Origin: Thermoplasmata archaeon | GTDB lineage: Archaea; Thermoplasmatota; Thermoplasmata; UBA10834 | Direction: 5' to 3' | DNA length: 64,000 bases | Assembly: GCA_029864565.1 (NCBI GenBank) | Contig: JAOTTD010000010.1 | Location: forward strand, 1 to 64,000 | Notes under the pieces: generated by a model | Told to the model about the DNA's origin: nothing | The model's database searches: none | Seen by the model: the letters and a program-made list of their open reading frames with translations, nothing else | Shown: positions 20,710-63,440 of the stretch, piece by piece | Numbering within the stretch: the first letter of the stretch is position 1 | How the letters are laid out: the number at the start of each line of letters is the position of its first letter | Translations under genes and position numbers: made by a program

Positions 20710-20880
20710 GGGGGTATGGGGTAGTCTGGTATCCTAACGGGCTCCAGTTATGGGAATGATTTCCGTTGGGTTTGCTGACCAGTGATGAGTAACTGGAGCG
20801 ATGACCCATGTCTGAACGCGTGGAGTCGCTCTCCACGTGGTGGAAACCCGTCGATGGGGGTTCAAATCCCTCTGCCCCCA
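20710..20880 (+). tRNA. tRNA-Trp(CCA) with a 98-nt intron
   Basis: The acceptor stem pairs GGGGGTA (20710-20716) with TGCCCCC (20873-20879); A20880 is the discriminator. The anticodon stem is ACGGG (20737-20741) with CCCGT (20847-20851). The T-arm is GGGGG-TTCAAAT-CCCTC. The intron (20748-20845) follows position 37; splicing leaves the loop CTCCAGA with anticodon CCA at 20744-20746. The BHB is relaxed: bulges AGT and AAA flank an imperfect 4-bp helix. The intron carries a box C/D guide RNA, annotated separately. The gene's 3' end serves as an attachment site for the adjacent integrated element. Confidence 0.95.
20756..20804 (+). ncRNA. Box C/D guide RNA inside the tRNA-Trp intron
   Basis: Box C is ATGATTT (20756-20762), box D' CTGA (20775-20778), box C' GTGATGA (20782-20788), and box D ATGA (20801-20804). 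Both C-D' and C'-D spacers are exactly 12 nt, the usual archaeal length. Spacer 2 contains TAACTGGAGC (20790-20799), perfectly complementary over 10 nt to pre-tRNA 20741-20750; the fifth base before box D (G20796) pairs with C34. Spacer 1 ends GGGTTTG; the fifth base before D' (G20770) pairs with C39. The predicted products are therefore 2'-O-methyl C34 and C39 on the host pre-tRNA. Intron-encoded guides for positions 34 and 39 are known in euryarchaeal tRNA-Trp. Box D is non-consensus (ATGA). Confidence 0.85.
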
Positions 20881-20941
20881 CTCTCAGGCATAGCCAGTAT
20901 AGTCGTCAGACCGAGAAATCACGGGGTTTTTTGTACCGGGG
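20858..20941 (+). repeat. Left attachment-site repeat (tRNA-Trp 3' end plus integrase 3' end)
   Basis: The last 23 bases of tRNA-Trp and the following 60 bases, which encode the integrase C-terminus on the minus strand, are repeated at 28734-28817 with about three quarters of positions identical. The best-conserved core is GGTTCAAATCCCTCTGCC. A direct repeat of a tRNA 3' end beside an integrase gene is the usual mark of site-specific integration. Confidence 0.65.
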
Positions 20942-21393
20942 GATGCTGGCATTGAACCGTCCATTATGCGGAGGATTTCACGGTTCACAGCATCAGTGCT
21001 TCTTTGGCAGTAGTACTTCTGTGTGGTCTTGAGGCTGTTGTGTCCGAGAGCGCCCGAGGCGGTCTCCAGGTCGCCGCCGCCGTCAAGCAGCATCTGTCCA
21101 TAGGTCCTGCGAAGGGCACGAAGCTCGAATCTGACTCCAGAAACTGCCTCGACCTGTGCCTTGACCTTCTGCAGACGGTTGGCGCTGTAGAAACGAGCGG
21201 GGTCATCCTTGCGACACAAGAGCGGTTCGGCATCCAGAAGGCCGTGCTCTGAGAGAATGCGTTCTCGCGCGCTCAGGTAGGCAAGCACGACGGGGCATAC
21301 CTTCAGGTCACAGGACGGATAGTGAGGGAAATCCAGGATGACAACAGTGCCAAATACTTCATCATCGAGCTTGAGAACAAGCGACTGACCCAC
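20884..21393 (-). CDS. Tyrosine recombinase/integrase, C-terminal catalytic fragment
   Basis: A 169-residue piece of a phage-type integrase. It carries the second half of the catalytic domain: FELRALRRTYGQMLLDGG (box II, with R in place of the usual H), DLETASGALGHNSLKTT (LGH motif) and the nucleophile region QKYYCQ near residue 135. The N-terminal DNA-binding domain and the first catalytic arginine are missing, since a full integrase has about 300 or more residues. The gene is therefore probably inactive, or split as in some archaeal elements. It is convergent with tRNA-Trp and its stop lies 4 bases after the tRNA end. A second remnant of the same C-terminus (ISRTDDYTSYA) follows repeat D near 28760-28795. 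Confidence 0.8.
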   Translation of the reverse strand: MGQSLVLKLDDEVFGTVVILDFPHYPSCDLKVCPVVLAYLSARERILSEHGLLDAEPLLCRKDDPARFYSANRLQKVKAQVEAVSGVRFELRALRRTYGQMLLDGGGDLETASGALGHNSLKTTQKYYCQRSTDAVNREILRIMDGSMPASPGTKNPVISRSDDYTGYA

Positions 21394-21576
21394 CGATACT
21401 TGATGGTGTCAGAGAAATGCGTAGGTGATTCAATTCCCAGGGAGTTCTCGCAAGGGGAAGGCCCTCTGCATGTCGGGATTGCCGTTGTTCTAAACGATAG
21501 GATAGTTGCCAATGATACCTTCGACTTCGATGAGGTCCACTACTTTGCCATCGGTGAGATTCGGCCCATACGATAA
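21322..21576 (+). CDS. Hypothetical small protein ending at repeat A
   Basis: An 84-codon frame whose second half (from the internal ATG at 21403) has natural protein composition, with GPLHVGIAVVLNDRIVAND and FDFDEVHYFAIGEIRPIR. The first 24 codons are antisense to the integrase fragment, so the real start is uncertain and the gene may be a truncated remnant. The stop codon (21574-21576) touches the first base of repeat A. No family is recognised. Confidence 0.4.
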   Translation: MREIQDDNSAKYFIIELENKRLTHRYLMVSEKCVGDSIPREFSQGEGPLHVGIAVVLNDRIVANDTFDFDEVHYFAIGEIRPIR

Positions 21577-21657
21577 GGGGTTTACCCCGGTACGAAATCC
21601 TGCTTGATTCTCCCAGGCTTTGGACACACTGGCTCAGCAGAGGTTTAAATCCCTCTG
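21577..21657 (+). repeat. T-arm-like repeat, copy A
   Basis: 81 bases with three potential hairpins: GGGGTTTACCCC, CCTG...CAGG, and CAGAGG-TTTAAAT-CCCTCTG resembling a tRNA T-arm with box B. The middle stem is CCTG/CAGG here and CCCG/CGGG in copy D, a compensatory change. It begins right after the stop of the small ORF and ends 60 bases before the next gene. Confidence 0.8.
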
Positions 21658-21717
21658 AATGCGTGGGAAAAACCATAGAGACGGAAGGGCATCCGGTGAG
21701 AGGTCGAGGGGGATGGC
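21658..21717 (+). promoter_or_regulatory. Conserved leader before the zinc-ribbon protein gene
   Basis: The 60 bases between repeat A and the ATG at 21718 resemble the 56 bases between repeat B and the ATG at 23138. Shared blocks are a GAAT..CGTG segment, GGAAAA, TAG.G.CGGAAGGG, ATCCG, and GGTCGAGGG, the last serving as ribosome-binding site. Repeat and leader thus form one duplicated upstream unit. Confidence 0.55.
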
Positions 21718-22905
21718 ATGAAGTGTCCGAAGTGCGGTGCGGAGAATGCCGATTACTTGTTCTACTGCGGCTCGTGTGCATCAGGATTGCGTGATGATCC
21801 TGCGAGGAGTATAGAAGTAAGACAACCGGTGGCAACTGCGCGTGACGGATCTGACTCGGCTGCGGAGCATAAGGCCAAGCTGAAGAAGTCGTTGAGACAA
21901 ATGGCGCTGACATTTGGAGCGTTTGCCGCTTTTTGGCTTCTTCTTGGGGTCCTGTCAATGACAGATGGGGATTTGGATTACAGCCGCTTGCACTATTTGG
22001 TTCTCGCTGGCCTGTTTGCCCTAATTTCTGTCCACAGCTATTGGACCAGCACCGATGATGAAGCACTGTCCTTCTTCCGTCTTGGTGGCTGGACCGGGAA
22101 TGTTTCCGTCGAAGTGGCTGGCTTGAATCTCAGCGGCCTGGTCGGAGTATTGGTGGGGATAACCGCAGGAGTGATGACTGGCATACTGCTTGGGGATGAA
22201 CCGGGATTCATCATTTACTCTGCAGTATTCATCTTAGTGATGATTGGGTCGTTGCTCTTGGTCATGTTCTGTTGGCCGCCGAAGGTAGCGCTTGAAGAGG
22301 CCGGCATATGCATAGGATACCCAAGCAGAAATCGTGTATTCATCCCTTTCGAGAAGGTCTCATCGGTCGGGCTCAAGAAGAAGGTGCTCAGAGTATCCTT
22401 GGGCAAGAGACGTCCGCTCAGCTTTAAGACGCATAGATACCTGCTTCTGGGGAACATCGAAGACATGAGGAAGGAACTTGACAGGGTTGCGCCTTCAGGG
22501 GTCCCTTCCCGCGCATTGACCTCCCCCTATCAGAAAGGTGCCGAGGTAGCCGGGCCCGAAGTCGTGTTTGAAGGCACGGGCCTATCCAAGCTAACTCCGG
22601 CAGGGATCATGCTCATCATCGCCGGATTCTTCGCATTCATGAATGCTGTCGTCCTATTCGCCATTGACAGCCTCTTGTTCACTCCCGGTAGTAGCCCCCT
22701 CGTCTGCTGCGGCGGATTGGAGGTACTGTGCGGGGCGATTGCGATTCTGGGCGGAATACAGACAATACGCAGAGTGAAGTACAAGCTGTCAGTAATCGCG
22801 TCCATATTGGCCACAGTGAGTGGCGGAGGCTTGGTCGTATCCCCCGTGCTCGGAATAATCTCCCTTGTGATTATCCATCGATACAGAGAAGACTTCGAGG
22901 ATTGA
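21718..22905 (+). CDS. Zinc-ribbon multi-pass membrane protein
   Basis: A 395-residue protein opening with a double-CxxC zinc ribbon (MKCPKCGAENADYLFYCGSC). Membrane helix pairs follow near residues 60-105 (LTFGAFAAFWLLLGVLSM; LHYLVLAGLFALISVHSYW), 135-185 and 295-395. Between the second and third pairs is a soluble stretch with ICIGYPSRNRVFIPFEKVSS and LKKKVLRVSLGKRRPLSFK that resembles a PH-like membrane domain. It is cargo of the island, preceded by repeat A and a leader shared with the next gene. Function is unknown; zinc-ribbon plus PH-like membrane proteins often act in envelope organisation or signalling. Confidence 0.7.
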   Translation: MKCPKCGAENADYLFYCGSCASGLRDDPARSIEVRQPVATARDGSDSAAEHKAKLKKSLRQMALTFGAFAAFWLLLGVLSMTDGDLDYSRLHYLVLAGLFALISVHSYWTSTDDEALSFFRLGGWTGNVSVEVAGLNLSGLVGVLVGITAGVMTGILLGDEPGFIIYSAVFILVMIGSLLLVMFCWPPKVALEEAGICIGYPSRNRVFIPFEKVSSVGLKKKVLRVSLGKRRPLSFKTHRYLLLGNIEDMRKELDRVAPSGVPSRALTSPYQKGAEVAGPEVVFEGTGLSKLTPAGIMLIIAGFFAFMNAVVLFAIDSLLFTPGSSPLVCCGGLEVLCGAIAILGGIQTIRRVKYKLSVIASILATVSGGGLVVSPVLGIISLVIIHRYREDFED

Positions 22906-23000
22906 GCGAGTTCGAGGGACGATTACAGACCATTGAGAGTGCATCAGGGCAATAGTATACACGAACCGCAGTCAAGAAAACGAACCATAGGGAAGGAAAA

Positions 23001-23081
23001 GGGTTTGTCCCCGGCACGCTATTCCGCTTGATTTTCTCAGGGTTCGGACATACTGGCTTGGCAGAGGTTCGAATCCCTCTG
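23001..23081 (+). repeat. T-arm-like repeat, copy B
   Basis: 81 bases matching copy A through the whole length: GGGTTTGTCCCC hairpin, a CTTGATTTTCT loop, CGGACATACTGGCTTGG, then CAGAGGTTCGAATCCCTCTG. It lies between the stop of the zinc-ribbon gene and the leader of the propeller gene. Confidence 0.8.
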
Positions 23082-23137
23082 AATTCGTGAGGAAAAGTCT
23101 TAGGGGCGGAAGGGTATCCGAGAAGCGGTCGAGGGAA

Positions 23138-24988
23138 ATGGTTAAACGAATTGCCTACTCAATTGGCGTCCTGTCCTGTCTGATTGTGCAAGTCTTTGGA
23201 TCTTCTGCAATTCCAGCCGATGCAGAATCCGTCTCAGGATGGGGGGCGCCTGTTTTGATTGAGACTGACGACATTTGGAGTGCACAAGATCCCAGCATTG
23301 CCATGGACAATGCTGGCAATGCTATCGTCGTATGGGAGGGAGTTGACAGCATTTGGGCTAATCGATACTACGCTGGAATCGGTTGGGGCACCGCACAGCC
23401 GATTAGCCCCGATGATGGAATGGACTGCAATTGGCCAAAGGCTGTTGTTGACGATGCAGGAAATGGCGTCACGATATGGCAGAGGTCTGATGGCATCTGG
23501 GCCAATAGATTTGTGGTCGGAATGGGCTGGGGCACTGCATCACTCATAAGGACTGATGACTTGGGAACGTGCTATTGGCCCGCACTCGCGGGGGACAGCG
23601 CGGGAAACGCAATAGCCATGTGGATGCAAAACGACAGCATTCGAACAAATCTGTGGGCTATTCAATATACCGCTGATTCGGGCTGGGGCACGGCTACACT
23701 CATCGAGAATAGCACGGAAACTGCCTGGGGCCACAGAATTGCCATGGATGATGCAGGAAGCGCAATCGCCGTATGGATGCAGAGCGATGGCGTTCGGAGC
23801 AACATCTGGGTCAATAGATATGTCTGGGGGGCCGGATGGGGCACGCCGGAGCTCGTTGAAGACGACTTAGGATATGTCTCCCATCATGAAGTAGCCATTG
23901 ACTGTGCAGGAAATGCTATCGTTTTATGGAATCAGATGGATGAGGATGTATGGCAGCAGAATATCTGGGCCAGGCGATATGTCACAGGATCAGGTTGGGA
24001 CACGGCTGAGATAGTAGATAACCCAGACGAATCTAGTGGAGCGACACAGATTGCGTCCGACGGTGCTGGAAACGCCATCGTGGTATGGAGCCATTACCAT
24101 GACAGTAGCACCATGCAGGTATGGGCCAATCGGTATGTCCTCGGGAGTGGCTGGAGCGAACCGGAACTCATAGTGACTCTCGACTCAGGAGGATTGTACC
24201 CCCAGATAGCTGTCGATGATTCTGGGAATGGTTTTGCCGTGTGGATACAATCTGAAGACGATACGAACGAGCTCTGGGCAAGCAGATACGTACTGGGGAC
24301 TGGTTGGGGTGCAGCTGAACCCATTGACACTAATGATGCAGCTGAATCAGTCTTCTGGGCTCAAGTAGCCGTTGATGGCGCTGGAAATGCTGTTGTCGTA
24401 TGGGAGCAATATGATAGCGCTCCTCTCGGACGGCACGACATAGCGGCAAACCGGTATGTTGTACCAACGGATACTGTGCCTCCAGTCCTGTCGATTTCGA
24501 ATCCGATTGAAGGTGCAGTCATTGAATCCTCTGTCGTAACCGTATCAGGTGCGACTGAACCCGGAGCAACACTCGTGATTAATGGAATTGTGGTGAATGT
24601 AGAATCGAACGGGTCCTTCTCTGTCGAGATTGCCCTATTCGAGGGCACCAACAACATCGCGGCTACTGCAACCGACGATGCAGGCAATCCAACGACAGTC
24701 ACCTTAACCGTTACCTTCACTAATCCGGTCCATGAACTCGAAGAGGAGCTTAGCTTGGCGGAGGACGATCTGACCGCCTTGCGAGATAATCTGAACAGTA
24801 CACAAGGCGAACTTGACTCTGTGAACGAAGATCTAGAGAATTATGCCACCAAGACGCTCGCCTTCGGGAGCATCGCAGCCATCTTCGCAGCATTGGCAGC
24901 AGTGATGATAGTGATGTTTGTCGTGTTGAGGAAGAAAATCAACGCCATTGAGGGAAAATCGGTCGAAAAGGAGTCGCCACCTGATTGA
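23138..24988 (+). CDS. Stalked surface beta-propeller protein
   Basis: A 616-residue surface protein. The start is the ATG at 23138, right after GGTCGAGGG; the upstream in-frame ATG at 23087 lies just past repeat B, inside the conserved leader. After a signal peptide (IGVLSCLIVQVFGSSAIPAD) come eight imperfect repeats of 45-60 residues with the pattern DxAGNAIVVW ... WANRYxxGxGWGTA, likely blades of a propeller. A bacterial Ig-like module follows (SGATEPGATLVINGIVVNV), then a coiled coil (LEEELSLAEDDLTALRDNL) and one membrane helix (FGSIAAIFAALAAVMIVMFV) with a basic tail. It probably displays a binding head on a stalk. The ligand is unknown. Head/stalk/anchor order is the same as in the Kelch protein at 25228-26877. 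Confidence 0.8.
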   Translation: MVKRIAYSIGVLSCLIVQVFGSSAIPADAESVSGWGAPVLIETDDIWSAQDPSIAMDNAGNAIVVWEGVDSIWANRYYAGIGWGTAQPISPDDGMDCNWPKAVVDDAGNGVTIWQRSDGIWANRFVVGMGWGTASLIRTDDLGTCYWPALAGDSAGNAIAMWMQNDSIRTNLWAIQYTADSGWGTATLIENSTETAWGHRIAMDDAGSAIAVWMQSDGVRSNIWVNRYVWGAGWGTPELVEDDLGYVSHHEVAIDCAGNAIVLWNQMDEDVWQQNIWARRYVTGSGWDTAEIVDNPDESSGATQIASDGAGNAIVVWSHYHDSSTMQVWANRYVLGSGWSEPELIVTLDSGGLYPQIAVDDSGNGFAVWIQSEDDTNELWASRYVLGTGWGAAEPIDTNDAAESVFWAQVAVDGAGNAVVVWEQYDSAPLGRHDIAANRYVVPTDTVPPVLSISNPIEGAVIESSVVTVSGATEPGATLVINGIVVNVESNGSFSVEIALFEGTNNIAATATDDAGNPTTVTLTVTFTNPVHELEEELSLAEDDLTALRDNLNSTQGELDSVNEDLENYATKTLAFGSIAAIFAALAAVMIVMFVVLRKKINAIEGKSVEKESPPD

Positions 24989-25019
24989 GAGATAGTCGCA
25001 GAAATGAGAAGAAATGAAA

Positions 25020-25099
25020 GGGTTTGTCCCCGGTGGAAAATCCGATTGATTTTCTCCGGCTTCGGACATACTGGCTCGGCAGAGATTCAAATCCCTCTG
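25020..25099 (+). repeat. T-arm-like repeat, copy C
   Basis: 80 bases, one shorter than copies A, B, D and E in the middle hairpin. GGGTTTGTCCCCGG, TTGATTTTCT, CTTCGGACATACTGGCTCGG and CAGAGATTCAAATCCCTCTG are clear. It begins 32 bases after the propeller gene stop. Downstream, ACAGACGGAATAAAGG may be a relic of the leader seen after copies A and B. Confidence 0.8.
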
Positions 25100-25227
25100 G
25101 AGCTTCGATACAAGGCAAAACAGACGGAATAAAGGAAGGGGGTTTGGCGAGGGGCAATCAACCTCTCGTGAGAGACCAACGAGTGTCGTCTATCTCTCAA
25201 TCCGATTCATCAGTCCCGACGCATATC

Positions 25228-26877
25228 TCATGTGCTTGGAGGAGGCGGTGACACGCCGGATCTGCGGCCCATGACCATCATGAGAACCATGAGGACGATG
25301 ACTACGATGAGCAGGCCGATGACGGCATACTGTAGAGAGTTGTCGGCCTTCTTGTCCAACGATGTCTGTACGTCGTTCATGGATTCCTGCATCTCGGTCA
25401 GGACATCCCGCAGCTCGTCCAGCTGAGCCTGCAAGTCGGTGATGTTGCCGTCAGCGTCGGAGAGTTGAGCCTCGAGAGCATCGAGCGCCGCCTCAAGGCC
25501 CGCGATGTCCGTCGCCTGAGCGTCCAGGAGTTCGGTCAAGTTTGTCTTCAGCATCTCCAGTTGTTCCTCGAACGTGTATGCATCTGTCACGGTTACGTCT
25601 AATGACTTCTCTGGGAAGTCCGATGGATAGAATCCCACGTCCACAACGAGTGTGTAATCGCCTGCGGGCGTTGCGGCCGGGATATCCAGCACGAACTCCG
25701 CGGGTTCAAGGACAGGGACCCAGACCTCCCACACTGAATGCACAGTTCCAGAGTCCGAAATGAGATATGCGTCTGCATAGTAGCCGTCCGGGTGTGCGAA
25801 TGCTAAATCCAGCGTGACCCCGAGATTCAAGGAACCGCCTTGGGCCACTGGTGTTCCCGAGAGGGTAACTTCCAAATGCGCGACCTCAAGAGATAGAACA
25901 GTGCTCATCACATCCGTATCGTTGTTGCCTCCGAAGATGTAGAGCATTCCCTCGGGAGTCGCGACAGCGCCCGCGTGCCTCACACCGACTGGGAGGGCGG
26001 GGCCGTCGTGCCAATCGCCATCATACGTGTCATACCAATAGGTTGTGTCATAACCCGGGCCGATGTTGTATCCATCGCCCCCGCCGCCCATCACGAAGAT
26101 GTTCCCGTCAACGGCAATAGCACACGATTGCGAGGCCACGGGTACTGGCATCTCATCTCCAAGTCCGTACCAAAAGTCTCCATCCACTGAGTAGACGTAG
26201 ACCGTGGCGCTGCTGTCAGTCCATGAGGAAATGCTGCCTCCCAAGTAGTACAAGCTGCTCCCCTGGTAGAGGCTCACGAGGGCCCCTGAGTTGCGAGCCG
26301 AAGGCATCGGGGTTCCCATGGACCATGAGTCCATCAAAGGATCGTAAATCTGCACCGTATCCATGTTGCCGTAGGTTTCATTATTGCCACCTATGACATA
26401 TATCATGTCGTTGTAACCCAGGGCTGCCCTGCCCTGCCAGACGCCTGTCGGCATACTGGTTCCCAGATGCCACGAATCGGTGTCGGGGTCATATATCTGG
26501 ACTGCGAATTCTGGGGAGTCTCCACCGAATATGTACAGTTTTCCGTCGGGACCCACAACACCAGCCGCCCCCCGTGTTGGAATTGGCAATGGGGCCAATG
26601 AATTCCACGATCCAGCATCCAAGTCGTAAGAACTTGCCTCGTCCGTGGGACTGTAGGGGTCAGTGTTGTTCACTCCTCCCATCACATAGACGACTCCTTC
26701 TGCGCCATAGAGGATGACGGCCTGCGCCCGGGGCCCGTCCATAGATGGCTCTTCAACCCACTCTCCCGTCAGAGCTGCGCTGACAGGAGTTGCAGTTAAG
26801 CCCAACGATGCAGATGCCAGCAGGAATGCGAATGCTCCCGCCAACACAGCAGTCTCACCAACTCCTATACTTCTCAT
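25228..26877 (-). CDS. Stalked surface Kelch-repeat protein
   Basis: A 549-residue protein starting at the ATG at 26877 after AGGTGAG. After a signal peptide (TAVLAGAFAFLLASASLG) it has about six Kelch repeats with the GG...Y/W pattern: VVYVMGGVNNTDPYSP, KLYIFGGDSPEFAVQIYD, MIYVIGGNNETYGNMDTVQ, LYYLGGSISS, IFVMGGGGDGYN, and LYIFGGNNDTDVMST. These should fold as a beta-propeller. An Ig/CARDB-like beta domain follows (TLSGTPVAQGGSLNLGV), then a long heptad coiled coil of about 90 residues, then a membrane helix (AVIGLLIVVIVLMVLMMVMG). The tail is SPPPPST. It resembles the neighbouring propeller protein in plan though not in head sequence, and lies on the opposite strand. Confidence 0.85.
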   Translation of the reverse strand: MRSIGVGETAVLAGAFAFLLASASLGLTATPVSAALTGEWVEEPSMDGPRAQAVILYGAEGVVYVMGGVNNTDPYSPTDEASSYDLDAGSWNSLAPLPIPTRGAAGVVGPDGKLYIFGGDSPEFAVQIYDPDTDSWHLGTSMPTGVWQGRAALGYNDMIYVIGGNNETYGNMDTVQIYDPLMDSWSMGTPMPSARNSGALVSLYQGSSLYYLGGSISSWTDSSATVYVYSVDGDFWYGLGDEMPVPVASQSCAIAVDGNIFVMGGGGDGYNIGPGYDTTYWYDTYDGDWHDGPALPVGVRHAGAVATPEGMLYIFGGNNDTDVMSTVLSLEVAHLEVTLSGTPVAQGGSLNLGVTLDLAFAHPDGYYADAYLISDSGTVHSVWEVWVPVLEPAEFVLDIPAATPAGDYTLVVDVGFYPSDFPEKSLDVTVTDAYTFEEQLEMLKTNLTELLDAQATDIAGLEAALDALEAQLSDADGNITDLQAQLDELRDVLTEMQESMNDVQTSLDKKADNSLQYAVIGLLIVVIVLMVLMMVMGRRSGVSPPPPST

Positions 26878-27164
26878 CTTCTCACCTAGTAATACTCGGC
26901 CGCAGTATGGCATCTGCCCCCACGGCTCCGTGTCTTTCGGGAGCATTGGTCTATACCGTTATATAGCATCTACCCCTGCCGAGTAAGGCTCGCTCGGCCC
27001 ACTCTGCTCAATAGAAGAGGCCGTAGGGGCGGAACGGCGGGCATACAGTAGACAATTCAGTTCGTGATTCTTGAAGCCCCATAAGAACGAAAGGCAACCT
27101 GATGCATTTTGGAAAATAGAAGAAAGGGAGAGCGGATCTCCCTGTTTCAACCGGCTCTTGCCCC

Positions 27165-28328
27165 TCAGTTGTAGTCCACGAGGAAGTCATACCAGCCCAA
27201 ATCGACTGCGAAATCGACCTCGGCGTATGCTGGAGAATAGAAGGACCAGTCTCCCCTCACTCCCCACCATATCGTTAGACCTCTCGAATCCTCGGCTCCC
27301 TGGCCTCCCCAGACAGCCAGAACAGCGCTGTCCACAAGAGCGACCATGTTGGCAGTCGCGGTCCTCAGGTCGGCGTCGCTAATCTTGGAATTCGCCAGCA
27401 GTGTGTCGCCGAGGTCTGCCATGTCGACATGCTTGTATGTCGCCCATGCAGAATATGAATCCTTCAGCGCAGTTTTGTAGTATCTCGCGTATGCCCCGAG
27501 GTTTGCATGCATCTCCGCGATCCATGTATCGAGTGTCGTTATCGAGCTTCCAATGACCCCGACGTCGATCGCCGACAATCCTACCGTCGTGGCCCAGCTC
27601 AGAGGCGCATAATAGGCTTCCCAACCATCGATCATGTCAACAGCGACCTGCGCCGGCGTTCTCGTGGGGTCCTGCGCGACTTGCGTCCACATCAAATCGT
27701 ACGGGAATCCATTCTCCGGTATGGTCTCCTCCGATGCGACCATCAGGTCCACAAGGCCGGTCTGTGCGACTTCGTAGACGACTTCTACGGCGGCCATGTT
27801 GCATGCGTCGAATGACAGGATGTCTATGAAGACGCCAGCTCCTTCGATGGCGGTCTGCAGTTCGTCCATCGTAATCTCATCATCGGAGGTCTGGTCATCG
27901 CTGATGTACCTCCAGGCATATCCATGGTCCCACATGGTTATCCCGAGTTTGTCGGACGGATAGAGCGTCGTGACTTCCGTGATGAACCACTGGAACGTGG
28001 CGCCGTCTCCGTAGTTCATCTCCTCATAAGTGTCGACCAGAGTGACGACACCGCCAGAAATCTCGTACAGCGAGCTTCCATTCTGGGCGACCCAGTCCAT
28101 CATCGCGACTATGTTCACATCAGAGTTCGCTGGTATGTTCTCGAGGGCTGGACGGCTGAAGTCATCCCAATACCGTTCAAGGTTGTTGTCCCCGTTGACA
28201 TAGATTGCCAAAGTCCACGACGTTGGCTCTCCCTCTCCCTTCGCGTGCATAGTCATTGCCAAACTAGGCACGACGAGAAGGGAGGCAATCAAAATGCCTA
28301 GGCCCACTTTCGAAATGTGTCCCCTCAA
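27165..28328 (-). CDS. Secreted clostripain-like cysteine peptidase (C11)
   Basis: A 387-residue exported protease of the clostripain/gingipain clan. The TTG start at 28328 follows GGGGTGA; it gives a signal peptide (GLGILIASLLVVPSLAMTMH). WTLAIYVNGDNNLE opens the catalytic domain. The catalytic histidine lies in GITMWDHGYAW near residue 135 and the catalytic cysteine in ILSFDACNMAAVEV near residue 180; VASEETIPENGFPY is also typical. The C-terminal part has the caspase-like sheet ending in YSPAYAEVDFAVDLGWYDF. C11 enzymes usually cleave after Arg or Lys. There is no membrane anchor, so it should be released or attached to partners. It is cargo of the island, upstream of the Kelch stalk gene in the same direction but 287 bases apart. 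Confidence 0.88.
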   Translation of the reverse strand: MRGHISKVGLGILIASLLVVPSLAMTMHAKGEGEPTSWTLAIYVNGDNNLERYWDDFSRPALENIPANSDVNIVAMMDWVAQNGSSLYEISGGVVTLVDTYEEMNYGDGATFQWFITEVTTLYPSDKLGITMWDHGYAWRYISDDQTSDDEITMDELQTAIEGAGVFIDILSFDACNMAAVEVVYEVAQTGLVDLMVASEETIPENGFPYDLMWTQVAQDPTRTPAQVAVDMIDGWEAYYAPLSWATTVGLSAIDVGVIGSSITTLDTWIAEMHANLGAYARYYKTALKDSYSAWATYKHVDMADLGDTLLANSKISDADLRTATANMVALVDSAVLAVWGGQGAEDSRGLTIWWGVRGDWSFYSPAYAEVDFAVDLGWYDFLVDYN

Positions 28329-28669
28329 TTTTGTTCACCCCTGCGAGAAACACCATTTGTCTTACGTATGCAAAGTTTCCGCACTGAAAATGTTTATGGC
28401 CAGTATACTATAAGAACTATGGTTTTCGCCTGTCTGGAAGTGGCCTATCCAATGCCGTTTATCATCTCGAAAGCCCATGTTCAATTTGGGATACGAAATC
28501 CGAATGTATTGCCAATCAGGACCCCCTTCCGTCGTCCAGATAGCAACGATGCGCCGTCCTCGCGAATCGTAACTGGATGTCGAATAGTGGCTTTCGTTCG
28601 TCGTATTCTTGATCAACTACGGTATTGGCTGGGGCCACTTCACCATAACATTCTGGAGGGAATGGAAAG

Positions 28670-28750
28670 GGGTTTGTCCCCGGTACGAAATCCCGCTTGA
28701 TTTTCTCGGGCTTCGGACATACTGGCTCGGCAGAGGTTCAAATCCCTCTG
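28670..28750 (+). repeat. T-arm-like repeat, copy D
   Basis: 81 bases: GGGTTTGTCCCC, CCCG-cttgattttct-CGGG, CTTCGGACATACTGGCTCGG, and CAGAGGTTCAAATCCCTCTG. It is the copy closest to the tRNA-Trp 3' end, since the next bases (CCTCCAC) continue the tRNA-like sequence and then the integrase 3' end. TGGAGG 34 bases upstream of the T-arm region could even pair with CCTCCA like an acceptor stem. Confidence 0.8.
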
Positions 28751-28817
28751 CCTCCACACCTACGCATAGCTAGTGTAGTCGTCCGTCCGAGAAATTAATG
28801 CATCTATTGTACTGACG
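28734..28817 (+). repeat. Right attachment-site repeat with integrase C-terminal remnant
   Basis: A second copy of the tRNA-Trp 3' end joined to an integrase end. The minus strand over 28760-28795 reads ISRTDDYTSYA then stop, against ISRSDDYTGYA at 20884-20920. Further upstream integrase sequence is not recognisable here. This is the likely right border of the 7.9 kb element, or the left border of a second tandem one. Confidence 0.6.
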
Positions 28818-29138
28818 GGTTTGGACCTGAAGGGGCTTCCGAGCCTGCCAAGCCATACGACCTTGGGAGAATGCGGGCTCTGGCCTGATGTGGTCGTAAC
28901 ATCGTTCTGTGGTATTGCTCGAAGAGTGTCTAGCACCTTGGAGATCGGCTCAATCGGCGCTCCTGCATCCTTGCACGCAATAGCCTACCTCGCCATTCCA
29001 AAACACAAACGGGGTATTGCATCATGGTAGGCAACGTTGGCTTTCTGGAGGACTTTCCTCAGATTATGAAGTGCAGCGACGAGATTGGACGGACAGAAAA
29101 CGAGTTAAGGAGTTTCTATAGTTTGTCTACCAACAGGT
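28818..29138. other. Intergenic region, no supported gene
   Basis: About 320 bases beyond the right att-like repeat. A 69-codon frame (28821-29030, plus) contains LPSLPSHTTLGE, which faintly recalls the N-terminal part of some IS transposases, but the match is too short to call. Otherwise nothing was recognised. Confidence 0.4.
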
Positions 29139-29858
29139 TCACTTTCCGTTGACTCCGCGTCCATGCTCCTTTGACAACAGCTCAAGCGTCAGCGTCGAGA
29201 GCTGGAAGTCATTGAAGTACTCGACTTCAGCGAGTATCACACCGCTCTCAGCCTTGGTGTCACCAGGTGCGCCTGCGGTTATATCAACACCCAAAGGCGT
29301 TATCGGGTTCCCGTCAGGGTCCTCTGATGGGACTTCGCCGATCCAGAAGCTCAGCCTGTAGTCCCCAGACGACAAGGTCCTCGTGTCCCAGTTGAACCCG
29401 TACAAGAGTCGCCCCTCGGAGTTGATCTCCGCCTTGTACGCGTCCCTGCTCTCCGGACCCTCAATCCACAGGTCCTCGCCGATTGATCTCGGGTCGTAGA
29501 TTACGTCCCACGTCCCGTCTGCGTCCTGCTTCTCGATCATGAAGTGCGCCGCAAGGGTATACACGTAAGCGCCCGTCGCTGGCTCGGTCAGGATAACCTC
29601 GACCCTCACCTTCGAGCCTGCACTCCACTGGTGGTAAACTATGTCGTCCGACCAGTCAATCATCACGTCATTCGCGGCTCTGACGAAGAGCGTTCCGCTG
29701 TCCCGTATTTCGCCATCAGCGACTACCGAGCCGTCGACGAAGTACCCCTCTGGGCACACCACGTTGAACAAGAGCGGATTTTCCGCCGCTGCCTGTCCCG
29801 AGCACATGACCAACATGGCCAGCGCCGCGGCTCCTGCAAAGAATGCCTTTCCTTTCAT
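29139..29858 (-). CDS. Secreted protein, paralogue of the 4.3 kb secreted protein
   Basis: A 239-residue exported protein. The ATG at 29858 follows GGGGAGGAC. The signal peptide is AFFAGAAALAMLVMCSGQAA. The mature domain is beta-rich and acidic. Its GRLLYGFNWDTRTLSSGDY segment matches GHLIYGMLWDTNGLGEGTY in the protein at 4304-5317, and the following strand plus LSFWIGE/VSVRLGY also aligns, so the two share a domain. It lacks the Gly/Asn-rich tail of that paralogue and ends in a basic KEHGRGVNGK. It lies just outside the right border of the tRNA-Trp element, between repeat copies D and E. Function unknown. Confidence 0.72.
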   Translation of the reverse strand: MKGKAFFAGAAALAMLVMCSGQAAAENPLLFNVVCPEGYFVDGSVVADGEIRDSGTLFVRAANDVMIDWSDDIVYHQWSAGSKVRVEVILTEPATGAYVYTLAAHFMIEKQDADGTWDVIYDPRSIGEDLWIEGPESRDAYKAEINSEGRLLYGFNWDTRTLSSGDYRLSFWIGEVPSEDPDGNPITPLGVDITAGAPGDTKAESGVILAEVEYFNDFQLSTLTLELLSKEHGRGVNGK

Positions 29859-30073
29859 GTCCTCCCCTCGTAATTGTCAGCGAATGAGGTCCCCATCAGC
29901 AGAGGAACCGCGTCTTGAGACACCCACTCTGCCATCGGGTAGCATGGATAGGATGGATATATTGGTATTGGTACAGACTTCAATATGACGGCGTGGCGAA
30001 AATCATACTGACTCGACGTATCTCCACTGGAAGGAGACCACACATCGAGGTATGAAGGATTGAGATAGGATGC

Positions 30074-30274
30074 GTGGTGGACGCGGGCCTCAAAATGCAC
30101 TTCTCAAGAGATGGCCTTGTTCTGAGAAAGATCCTTCTGACAACACATGTCGCCAACAGGACAACAAGAGCTCTCTGCGAGAGAGTTGGATTTACTGAGT
30201 GCGAAAGGGTCAATAGCATGTACGAGGACGGAATCACAGCCCTGATATACGGCATTGATACGAGGCTGAATTAG
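30074..30274 (+). pseudogene. GNAT acetyltransferase, C-terminal remnant
   Basis: A 66-codon frame whose second half, TTHVANRTTRALCERVGF and then VNSMYEDGITALIYGI, matches the end of GNAT N-acetyltransferases (the TxxxN..A..LYE..GF pattern and final strand). The acetyl-CoA-binding loop and everything before it are missing, so this is a decayed or truncated gene. It lies between repeat copies D and E, in a region that otherwise shows no coding sequence. Confidence 0.5.
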
Positions 30275-30386
30275 CCGTGACCAACGCTTGATGGGGCATT
30301 TTCAAAGGCGGCCTTTGTCAGTTTCATGGTCTGCAATCCCACAGAGTCCACCAGTGAGAAGAGGCCATAGAGGCGGAGAAATGAAA

Positions 30387-30467
30387 GGCGTTTGCCCCCT
30401 GTACGAAAATCCGATTGATTCTCTTCGACTTCCGATATACTGGCTATGAGAGATTTCAAATCCTCTG
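30387..30467 (+). repeat. T-arm-like repeat, copy E (most diverged)
   Basis: 81 bases: GGCGTTTGCCCCCTGTACG, TCCGATTGATTCTCTTCGA, TCCGATATACTGGCTATG, then GAGATTTCAAATCCTCTG. It keeps the same length and order as the others but with weaker stems. The segment just before it (30357-30377, AGAAGAGGCCATAGAGGCGG) recurs at 27013-27033 with two changes, and resembles the leader found after copies A and B. Confidence 0.7.
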
Positions 30468-30538
30468 TTCCCAGTCAAACGTCAAGCATGGCCGCAAGAA
30501 AGGCGCATTTTAATGCCGTCATTCTAGCGTGGTCCGAC

Positions 30539-31420
30539 CTATCCTACCGAGATCAAGATAATGCCCAGAATTACAATACTGAGAATCATCCAGTCCAGCC
30601 GCGACAGCCTCTCGCTCAGGAGTACGCGCGCTCCAAGTATGGTCACGATCGGGTACGCAGAAATGAGGGGGAAAACCAGCGACGCTGCGCCCTGTGATAC
30701 CGCGGAGGTCTCTGCGAAGTATCCGAGCTGCCAGAGCTCTGCCACGACTATAGCACCTATGACTGGCACCGTCCACTTGGGGAAGAAGACGCTCCACGAG
30801 GCACGCTTGTGACGAAGGTAGACGAAGCCTATCGGTGGCAGCACAAAGACATACAGACCAAGGTAGCCGATTAGCGGAAGGCCTTCGAGCGCCATCTTGA
30901 TGAATATCGCGCCGACGCCCCATAGGAAGAACGTTGCCAAGCTGAGCAATAGGGAAGACCGACTGAAGCCGGTCACGTTCCCTGCCGAGCGGCCGTGGGA
31001 GAACGAGAGGGCGACCATGCTCGCTATGATCATTGATATGCCCAGGCAGCTCAGCAGGCCGAGTCTCTCCCCAAGGAACGTTATCGCGAGGAGCGCCGTC
31101 AGGGCTGGGTACGCTGCGGTTATGCTGCCGACCATGCTCACGACGCCACTCTCGAGCGCCTCAAGGAAGATGTAGAATCCCCCTCTTGCTGTCGACGCGC
31201 CGATGAGGCCGTACAGGACGTATTCGAGATGGTCGAGGTACTCTCCCCAAAGGAGGACGGCTCCGATGAATATGAAGATGTACAATGGCAAAGAGACGAC
31301 CAAGTTGATGGCAACCATCGATGTGGCGTTGAGGGCTCTGACGGTGGCCTTCGCTATGACTTGGTCCAGGCCGTATATCAAGAGCGCGCACAGGGCGAGC
31401 GAGACTGCAGCTTCTATCAT
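30539..31420 (-). CDS. EamA/DMT-family membrane transporter
   Basis: A 293-residue drug/metabolite-transporter protein with ten membrane helices in two homologous EamA halves. Helix ends show the family pattern: ALESGVVSMVGSITAAYPAL with ALLAITFLGERLGLLSCLGI in half one, and TSAVSQGAASLVFPLISAYP with VLLSERLSRLDWMILSIVIL in half two. The start is set at the ATG at 31420, which follows GGCAGGAG; an upstream GTG-type start adds nine unlikely residues. It probably exports a metabolite or amino acid; the substrate is not predictable. Confidence 0.87.
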   Translation of the reverse strand: MIEAAVSLALCALLIYGLDQVIAKATVRALNATSMVAINLVVSLPLYIFIFIGAVLLWGEYLDHLEYVLYGLIGASTARGGFYIFLEALESGVVSMVGSITAAYPALTALLAITFLGERLGLLSCLGISMIIASMVALSFSHGRSAGNVTGFSRSSLLLSLATFFLWGVGAIFIKMALEGLPLIGYLGLYVFVLPPIGFVYLRHKRASWSVFFPKWTVPVIGAIVVAELWQLGYFAETSAVSQGAASLVFPLISAYPIVTILGARVLLSERLSRLDWMILSIVILGIILISVG

Positions 31421-31815
31421 TGAACTCCTGCCGGGTGCCCCCGCCATCCGCTATCAGTATTAGATAGTTGTCCAAGGGCGACTGCATCACTGCCGTTTTA
31501 TCACAGCAGGCGTGAGGGTGCGGCGATTGAAGCAGTCGAGTTGCGTCATTCGATGTCAACCCTTCGCTGGAGAAACGAGCTATGGCTTACCATGAAATGC
31601 TGCCCGTTACTGATTCATCGATGATGGGGCATCCTCGGTTGTTGATCGTGCGCCACATTTCGTGATTCGTGCCACGCAGAGTTCGGATCCGATGAGGCCT
31701 AAAAGAAACAGGCGTAGCACCTCACGAGAGGGAACGACTATGACGGCGTGCGCCCATGTTCGAAAGACGAAAGTCACAAATTGAATGTACGCCATGCACG
31801 GCCCACGGTGCTACC
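31421..31815. other. Intergenic region between divergent genes
   Basis: About 390 bases between the EamA transporter and the saccharopine dehydrogenase-like gene. It should contain both promoters. Short frames on both strands (for example 31607-31795 minus) show no motif. No repeats or RNA genes were found. Confidence 0.4.
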
Positions 31816-62997: not shown

Positions 62998-63334
62998 CTG
63001 CCACCAGTCCAAGCCTTGAAGAAGCCGACTCCCCTAATAACGGTTGCCTCTGACGATGCTTGTCCTCCATGCGATGACTCTTGACTGAGACAAGGATTTC
63101 GAACTTGTCAATCCGCTAAGTATCTTGAGCTTCTCGTTTGCCACCTTGTGGACTGTTTCCATTCAGTGCATGTCGGTGATGTTGATTGACAAGCCTCTGA
63201 GCAATCTCGACCGGCCAGAGGAGTCCGTTATCGGGACTTGAACTTGAGATACTCATGCACGCCATCCTTCTGAGTTGCCGATCCAATCAATCTGAGCCCC
63301 TCGTTGTCCTCGAGGACGCGCGAATCGTCGATGG
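62998..63334. other. Intergenic region upstream of the membrane-protein pair
   Basis: About 340 bases between the membrane-protein pair and the downstream end of tRNA-Ser. No gene was recognised. Short frames on the minus strand overlap the tRNA and are not credible. Confidence 0.45.
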
Positions 63335-63440
63335 CGCTGAGGGGGAGATTTGAACTCCCGAGGCGCAAAGCGCCACGAGCTAACAGGCTTGACAAGACAA
63401 GGCTCCAGGCTCGCGCCTTACCGGGCTGGGCCACCTCAGC
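63335..63440 (-). tRNA. tRNA-Ser(GGA) with an intron
   Basis: Read on the minus strand, the acceptor stem pairs GCTGAGG (63440-63434) with CCTCAGC (63342-63336); the discriminator is G at 63335. The anticodon stem is CGAGC/GCTCG and the anticodon GGA lies at 63406-63404. A 21-nt intron (63402-63382) follows position 37, with inner stem CTTG/CAAG and bulges AGC and TTA of a relaxed BHB. The long variable arm (GGCGC-TTT-GCGCC) and T-arm GGGAG-TTCAAAT-CTCCC confirm a type II serine tRNA. The mature RNA is 85 nt. Confidence 0.94.

Follow-up and report, generated by a model that had tools for sequence, protein, structure and literature searches.

Two linked layers of site-specific recombination probably shaped a variable gene array behind tRNA-Trp in a Thermoplasmata archaeon

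We analysed a stretch of 64,000 nucleotides from a Thermoplasmata archaeon (assembly GCA_029864565.1, contig JAOTTD010000010.1, positions 1 to 64,000; hereafter the window), in which five repeats of about 80 bp lie among cargo genes behind a tRNA-Trp gene. This locus was probably made by two linked layers of site-specific recombination, namely tRNA-targeting integrative elements and, interleaved with them, integron-like cassettes that meet at a shorter site, the A-box. In the first layer, small integrative elements would enter the 3′ end of a tRNA gene by means of a tyrosine integrase, and the 80-bp repeats would be the displaced attachment sites. Each scar would consist of an arm of about 62 bp (the B arm) joined to a copy of the T-arm and acceptor end of the target tRNA, and the complete element site would read B-core-B′, where B′ is an inverted arm inside the integrase gene at its 3′ end. 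If elements entered at tRNA-Trp again and again and their integrases then decayed, a row of B-core scars would be left; the anatomy of this row was observed directly, and the reaction we infer from it. In the second layer, the A-box would be the junction of gene cassettes pointing in the same direction, with some arrays directly behind a tRNA 3′ end, and cassettes would be exchanged at A between arrays and species. This layer would be integron-like, with A in the role of the integron site attC and the tRNA 3′ end as the anchor.

The structure of the repeat carries the case for the first layer. The A-box and B-arm surveys were searches across genomes, all of which are metagenome assemblies (the source genome is 86% complete). 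In each repeat a constant B arm was found to lead into a copied tRNA 3′ end, and the same arm preceded 3′ ends of Trp, Ala-TGC, Gly-CCC, Gly-GCC or Arg-CCT tRNAs. The tail matched a tRNA 3′ end at up to 26 of 26 positions, often that of the very tRNA present in the locus; random 34-mers gave a median score of 7 and a 95th percentile of 10. The preliminary description, which had been made from the letters of the window, held that the repeat ends imitate tRNA 3′ ends, and indeed the tail tracks the target tRNA. Because the tail switches with the target tRNA, and because an inverted arm ends the integrase gene, we take the arm with its tail to be the site that was displaced when elements integrated into tRNA genes. 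The far end of the element carries a second copy of the tRNA 3′ end, and a tyrosine recombinase of the Phage_integrase family is linked to the site, as in known tRNA-targeting elements. The repeats are thus DNA attachment sites and not RNA: B-core represents the attR side and tRNA-core-B′ the attL side; the site carried by the element itself is B-core-B′.

The target gene in the window is a tRNA-Trp with a CCA anticodon (20710-20881, plus strand), which the default tRNA scan missed because of its 98-nt intron and which an intron-aware scan recovered. Integration targets the 3′ part of this gene (about 20856-20881), the attB core. The integrase fragment noted beside it is real: positions 20884-21393 on the minus strand encode the C-terminal 169 amino acids of a truncated tyrosine integrase. 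The fragment matches Phage_integrase (PF00589) under the curated cut-off, which its full-length relatives of 376-400 amino acids exceed. The 3′ end of this gene (...DDYTGYA*) is an inverted copy of the B arm, the B′ arm (20884-20946, minus strand; B profile at minus 20942-20858, E 5.9e-5), and marks the attL side of the first element. The same tRNA-B′-integrase layout was found at Arg, Gly, Ala and Pro tRNAs, and intact integrases terminate beside tRNA-Ala, -His, -Leu and -Pro. Within the window no intact integrase is present, intact relatives being found in other genomes; the window therefore carries remnants of tRNA-targeting integrase elements. A second B′ arm or integrase-end remnant (28751-28812, minus strand; repeat family D3) follows the fourth repeat and completes a B-core-B′, attP-like arrangement at 28666-28812. 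The inverted arm in the integrase gene and the separate A-box at the starts of units had both been missing from the preliminary description.

A repeat finder placed the five copies in a single family, at 64-88% identity to the reference copy and with a length of about 83 bp, and further copies are present in relatives. All five lie on the plus strand. Copy 1 (21575-21657), an attR-type scar of the arm and a Trp-type tRNA 3′ end, was detected by repeat family, genome search, profile and tail match; copy 2 (22997-23081) and the best-preserved copy 4 (28666-28750) by repeat family, genome search and profile; copy 3 (25016-25099), which together with the Kelch unit behind it also occurs in the related genome G005, by genome search; and the most diverged copy 5 (30384-30468) by repeat family and profile. 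When copy 4 was used as a whole-genome query, four window copies (E 8e-24 to 7e-39) and two diverged copies on other contigs were recovered, and the profile recovered the fifth window copy (E = 1e-16). Copies outside the window lay at tRNA loci or cassette junctions, rather than being scattered genome-wide without cargo boundaries. Inside it, the copies do delimit one- or two-gene cargo as first described. The tRNA-end-like sites, the bounded cargo and the variation among congeners speak for the initial view of the region as a cassette array; for the 80-bp repeat itself, however, serial integration at tRNA sites, originally offered as an alternative, is the better description.

That the repeats are a structured RNA, a tRNA-like RNA or a terminator spread by duplication is very improbable. 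Such an RNA would fit the placement of the copies between genes and the T-arm-like stem, which is kept in 82% of cells. The changes in this stem, however, follow the target tRNA, and the stem is largely preserved because the tail was copied from the 3′ end of a tRNA. The three hairpins said to be the same in every copy were not confirmed, as the RNAalifold consensus reached −0.14 kcal/mol over 23 copies from nine genomes. The first stem showed no covariation above shuffles, and the supposedly compensatory middle stem is unsupported, pairing in only 57% of cells. Rfam gave no match in the window at the gathering threshold. With Rfam, consensus folding and pair counts all failing to support a fold backed by covariation, and with a tail that switches between tRNAs and an arm that recurs inverted in an integrase gene, we rejected assignment to a structured RNA family.

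The A-box is where the cassettes of a far larger system, spread over the whole genome, are joined. It is a non-palindromic box of 23 bp (GAGAAAAGGCCATAGGGGCGGAA), and a profile built from 34 examples found 63 in the source genome and 67 in genome G006. A logo of 154 boxes showed 22-23 conserved columns, whose information content of about 1.7 bits per position drops sharply to about 0 in the flanks. Neighbouring boxes less than 2.5 kb apart lay on the same strand in 136 of 137 pairs and on opposite strands in 1. The cassettes are mostly single-gene, and their genes point forward in 71 cases and in reverse in 22 (n = 93; 76% forward); most start codons lie 45-75 bp downstream of A. The 93 proteins fell into 68 clusters that include zinc ribbons, glyoxalase, acetyltransferase, EamA and C11 peptidase families, and a membrane-like segment was present in 66 of them. 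Two of the 81 cassette proteins of alignment A3 matched anti-phage defence models (TIR effector, mads_2). Behind many A-boxes, about 30 bp ahead of the start codon, a leader-like motif (CCCTTAAGC..GCGATTC) was observed, for example at L110:5973 and L114:6118; it may be the cassette promoter.

In a class-wide survey of 300 genomes, A was found in 15, of which 13 belong to the same order as the source. A scan of named genomes for the exact consensus gave matches in Thermoplasmatota, in metagenome-assembled genomes labelled 'Euryarchaeota' and in two contigs binned as Thorarchaeota. Our best reading is that the cassette system is specific to one Thermoplasmatota order. The two latter contigs (L136 and L138; JAEOUG01, binned as Thorarchaeota FT1_004) carry exact A-boxes and are probably misbinned, or possibly received them by transfer; L138 also has a resolvase-integrase-like stretch, and a stretch with a tRNA-Ala end and A that resembles L117. 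The exact consensus was not found in IMG/VR, and a viral carrier was accordingly set aside. Among open-licence papers, no description of such arrays was found.

Cassette mosaics break at A. Among pairs of A sites, 25 had only the downstream cassette in common, 45 only the upstream one, and 1 had both. G006 and G005, for example, share a cassette at about 97% identity whose flanks are unrelated on either side, and three consecutive cassettes of G002 are distributed over three G006 arrays. These breakpoints were observed; a dedicated recombinase would act at them. The A-boxes are also associated with tRNA 3′ ends: 28 of 198 lay within 45 bp behind such an end or a copy of it, compared with 2 of 600 control positions. 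Several arrays have their start no more than about 11 bp from a tRNA 3′ end, and A stands immediately behind intact tRNA genes such as Gly-GCC, Arg-CCT, Ala-TGC and Ala-CGC. A different arrangement was seen at L109:15263, L115:2408, L120:11040 and L181:11623, where B arms share a tail that is not of tRNA origin (..GAACGGATAC) and is followed by an A-box.

Comparison of congeners, which had been suggested as a check, revealed differences in repeat-bounded segments at the tRNA-Trp, tRNA-Ala(TGC) and tRNA-Arg(CCT) loci, with junctions at the tRNA 3′ end as expected of a tRNA-targeting element. In the source genome, 12.7 kb separate tRNA-Trp from the conserved hypF region, against 7.7 kb in G005 and about 4.2 kb in both G003 and G004; the G006 assembly has a gap at tRNA-Trp. 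Copy 3 and the Kelch unit recur in G005 at 88% identity over 25017-26993, where the Kelch unit is the last one and its homology stops about 14 bp before A-box 3. The block 30348-31492, which holds A-box 4, copy 5 and an EamA gene, belongs to the Trp array here and lies behind tRNA-Ala, between two B sites, in G003. At tRNA-Ala(TGC), the upstream homology of three species stops at the tRNA 3′ end, and at tRNA-Arg(CCT) homology stops 2 bp past it. An A-box follows tRNA-Ala(TGC) directly in G003 and G006; in G000 about 3.4 kb separate the tRNA from a tRNA-end copy with A, which is what the entry of an element at this tRNA, pushing the array away, would produce. A short contig of the G000 assembly (G000:C75, L175) holds a second copy of the PAC2 region, 85% identical, which suggests that the bin includes DNA from a second related strain or species.

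Other explanations of the arrays were weighed against the two-layer reading. The window array might consist only of decayed tRNA-Trp islands, its A-boxes having had no part in its formation, and we consider this unlikely. Core-B′-integrase remnants do occur twice in the window, and elements lie between tRNA and A array without involving A in G000, G004 and apparently G007; against this, three of the four window A-boxes (1, 2 and 4) sit behind tRNA-like cores, and the peptidase unit headed by A-box 3 turns up again among the cassettes of a G006 array. Less probable still is an exchange of cassettes at A through homologous or microhomology recombination between scattered short repeats, in which no dedicated site-specific enzyme takes part. 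In its favour, none of the recombinases could be linked to A, copies of the repeat are alike enough for recombination, and arrays persist in genomes with few recombinases. Such exchange, however, accounts poorly for the 136:1 uniformity of direction, for clean breaks at a 23-bp box between unrelated flanks, for A-boxes identical at 20-22 of 22 positions in many pairs in which the bodies have fallen to 72-80% identity, and for the placement of A close behind tRNA 3′ ends. We give little credence to the view that A is no more than a regulatory or promoter-proximal element shared by a large regulon, with ordinary rearrangement changing the gene order. The forward bias of the genes, the spacing of their start codons and the common leader-like motif would be natural for such an element, but 22 of 93 genes are reversed, B stands directly behind A without a gene in several places, A follows tRNA 3′ ends above chance, and homology on the upstream side reaches A too in 45 pairs, many stopping within 0-8 bp.

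Several observations nevertheless weigh against the two-layer reading. No excised circle or active reaction was observed. Most A junctions lack both B and a tRNA-like tail, and the A and B layers may therefore be independent of each other. The predominance of forward genes with starts mostly 45-75 bp past A would also suit a regulatory role of A. The comparison rests on metagenome assemblies, including that with the gap at tRNA-Trp. The source genome has a single intact tyrosine recombinase, with a XerA-like score as found across the order, so that neither layer need be active there. Nor did two enzyme classes qualify as the genus-wide A recombinase: serine recombinases are missing from 4 of 7 congeners, although resolvases pair with several of the integrases, and HUH transposases gave no match over the cut-off.

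Candidates for the A recombinase are XerA, the tRNA integrase acting in trans, or the resolvase that forms pairs with these integrases. Two recombinase genes of G007 stop about 17-23 bp ahead of an A-box. One of them, a XerC/D-like gene at L176:8403-9398, stops 17 bp ahead, and its product is a candidate enzyme for A. A small serine resolvase gene (about 200 amino acids) precedes tyrosine integrases of the window-integrase family at L073:10079-11837 and L180:12626-14297 and in L177 and L182, and the resolvase-integrase pair is present in three congeners.

Cassette capture is the best-known route for quick single-gene acquisition in bacteria. The A arrays look like an archaeal equivalent of bacterial integrons that had not been described before; like bacterial and archaeal integrons, they are arrays of mostly single-gene cassettes with one direction, unrelated cargo, repeated sites and shuffling between arrays. 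Unlike integrons, they use a 23-bp non-palindromic box in place of attC, are anchored at a tRNA 3′ end, and have about a quarter of their genes reversed. Six integrases and the window fragment scored no more than 40 bits with the IntI model TIGR02249 (cut-off 265), and by inspection, no attC-specific program having been run, the A-box showed no dyad symmetry of the kind expected from the paired imperfect inverted repeats of attC. Integron membership was therefore rejected on the integrase and the site. Archaeal integrons with IntI, attI and attC have been described (Ghaly et al. 2022, PMC9668308).

Archaeal elements that target tRNA genes through tyrosine integrases, including tandem integration, have been reviewed (PMC8371274). 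The first layer shares with these an integrase gene beside the tRNA, a duplicated tRNA 3′ end and tandem integration at one locus, and differs in its very small units of 1-2 cargo genes, mostly without an integrase, in a single arm type used with many tRNAs, and in the interleaving with A-box cassettes. In Xer-recognised pdif modules, short repeated sites flank movable gene modules, and a dif-type site has a spacer between two inverted arms. The A cassettes are similarly flanked by short repeated sites, possibly served by the host XerC/D or XerA, whereas the A-box has no two-arm symmetry by inspection. GInts are likewise integrase-containing genomic islands inserted by tyrosine recombinases; the title of their description defines them through four genes that are essential to recombination, and its abstract describes them as absent from archaea and does not mention an array of 23-bp sites (PMC5385486). 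There is about an even chance that the arrays form a new class of cassette system independent of integrons: anchored at tRNA 3′ ends, holding dozens of cassettes, using a short non-palindromic box and a recombinase unrecognised for this role, and largely confined to one Thermoplasmatota order. If so, the cassette-capture strategy would have arisen more than once, in archaea with a different site and a tRNA anchor, and the large variable gene pool of these archaea would be explained. The A-box together with the B arm offers a concrete key for finding the system elsewhere.

The units of the window begin with A-box 1 (21662-21687; weak match, E = 0.097 per genome), directly behind the Trp-like core of copy 1; this and all following A-boxes lie on the plus strand. 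It is followed by the gene of a zinc-ribbon membrane protein of 395 amino acids (21718-22905, plus). A-box 2 (23087-23112; profile E = 0.0014) precedes the gene of a secreted or anchored repeat protein with an Ig-like domain and a C-terminal membrane helix (23132-24988, plus). Behind copy 3 stands a probable degenerate A-box (GATACAAGGCAAAACAGACGGAAT; 25107-25130), judged by eye and missed by the profile, and then the gene of the Kelch-repeat surface protein (25228-26946, minus). A-box 3 (27010-27035; profile E = 2.9e-4) starts the peptidase cassette, whose clostripain-family (C11) peptidase gene (27165-28328, minus) has a homologous cassette in a G006 array at 85%. A secreted protein of 239 amino acids without a family match is encoded at 29139-29858 (minus). 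Just ahead of A-box 4 (30354-30379; profile E = 2.2e-5) lies a remnant of a tRNA-Ala 3′ end (GTCCACCA; 30346-30353, plus), and copy 5 directly behind this box forms an 'empty' A-B-core unit, followed by the EamA transporter gene (30539-31447, minus). Near the end of the window, a tRNA-Ser(GGA) with a 21-nt intron was found at 63332-63440.

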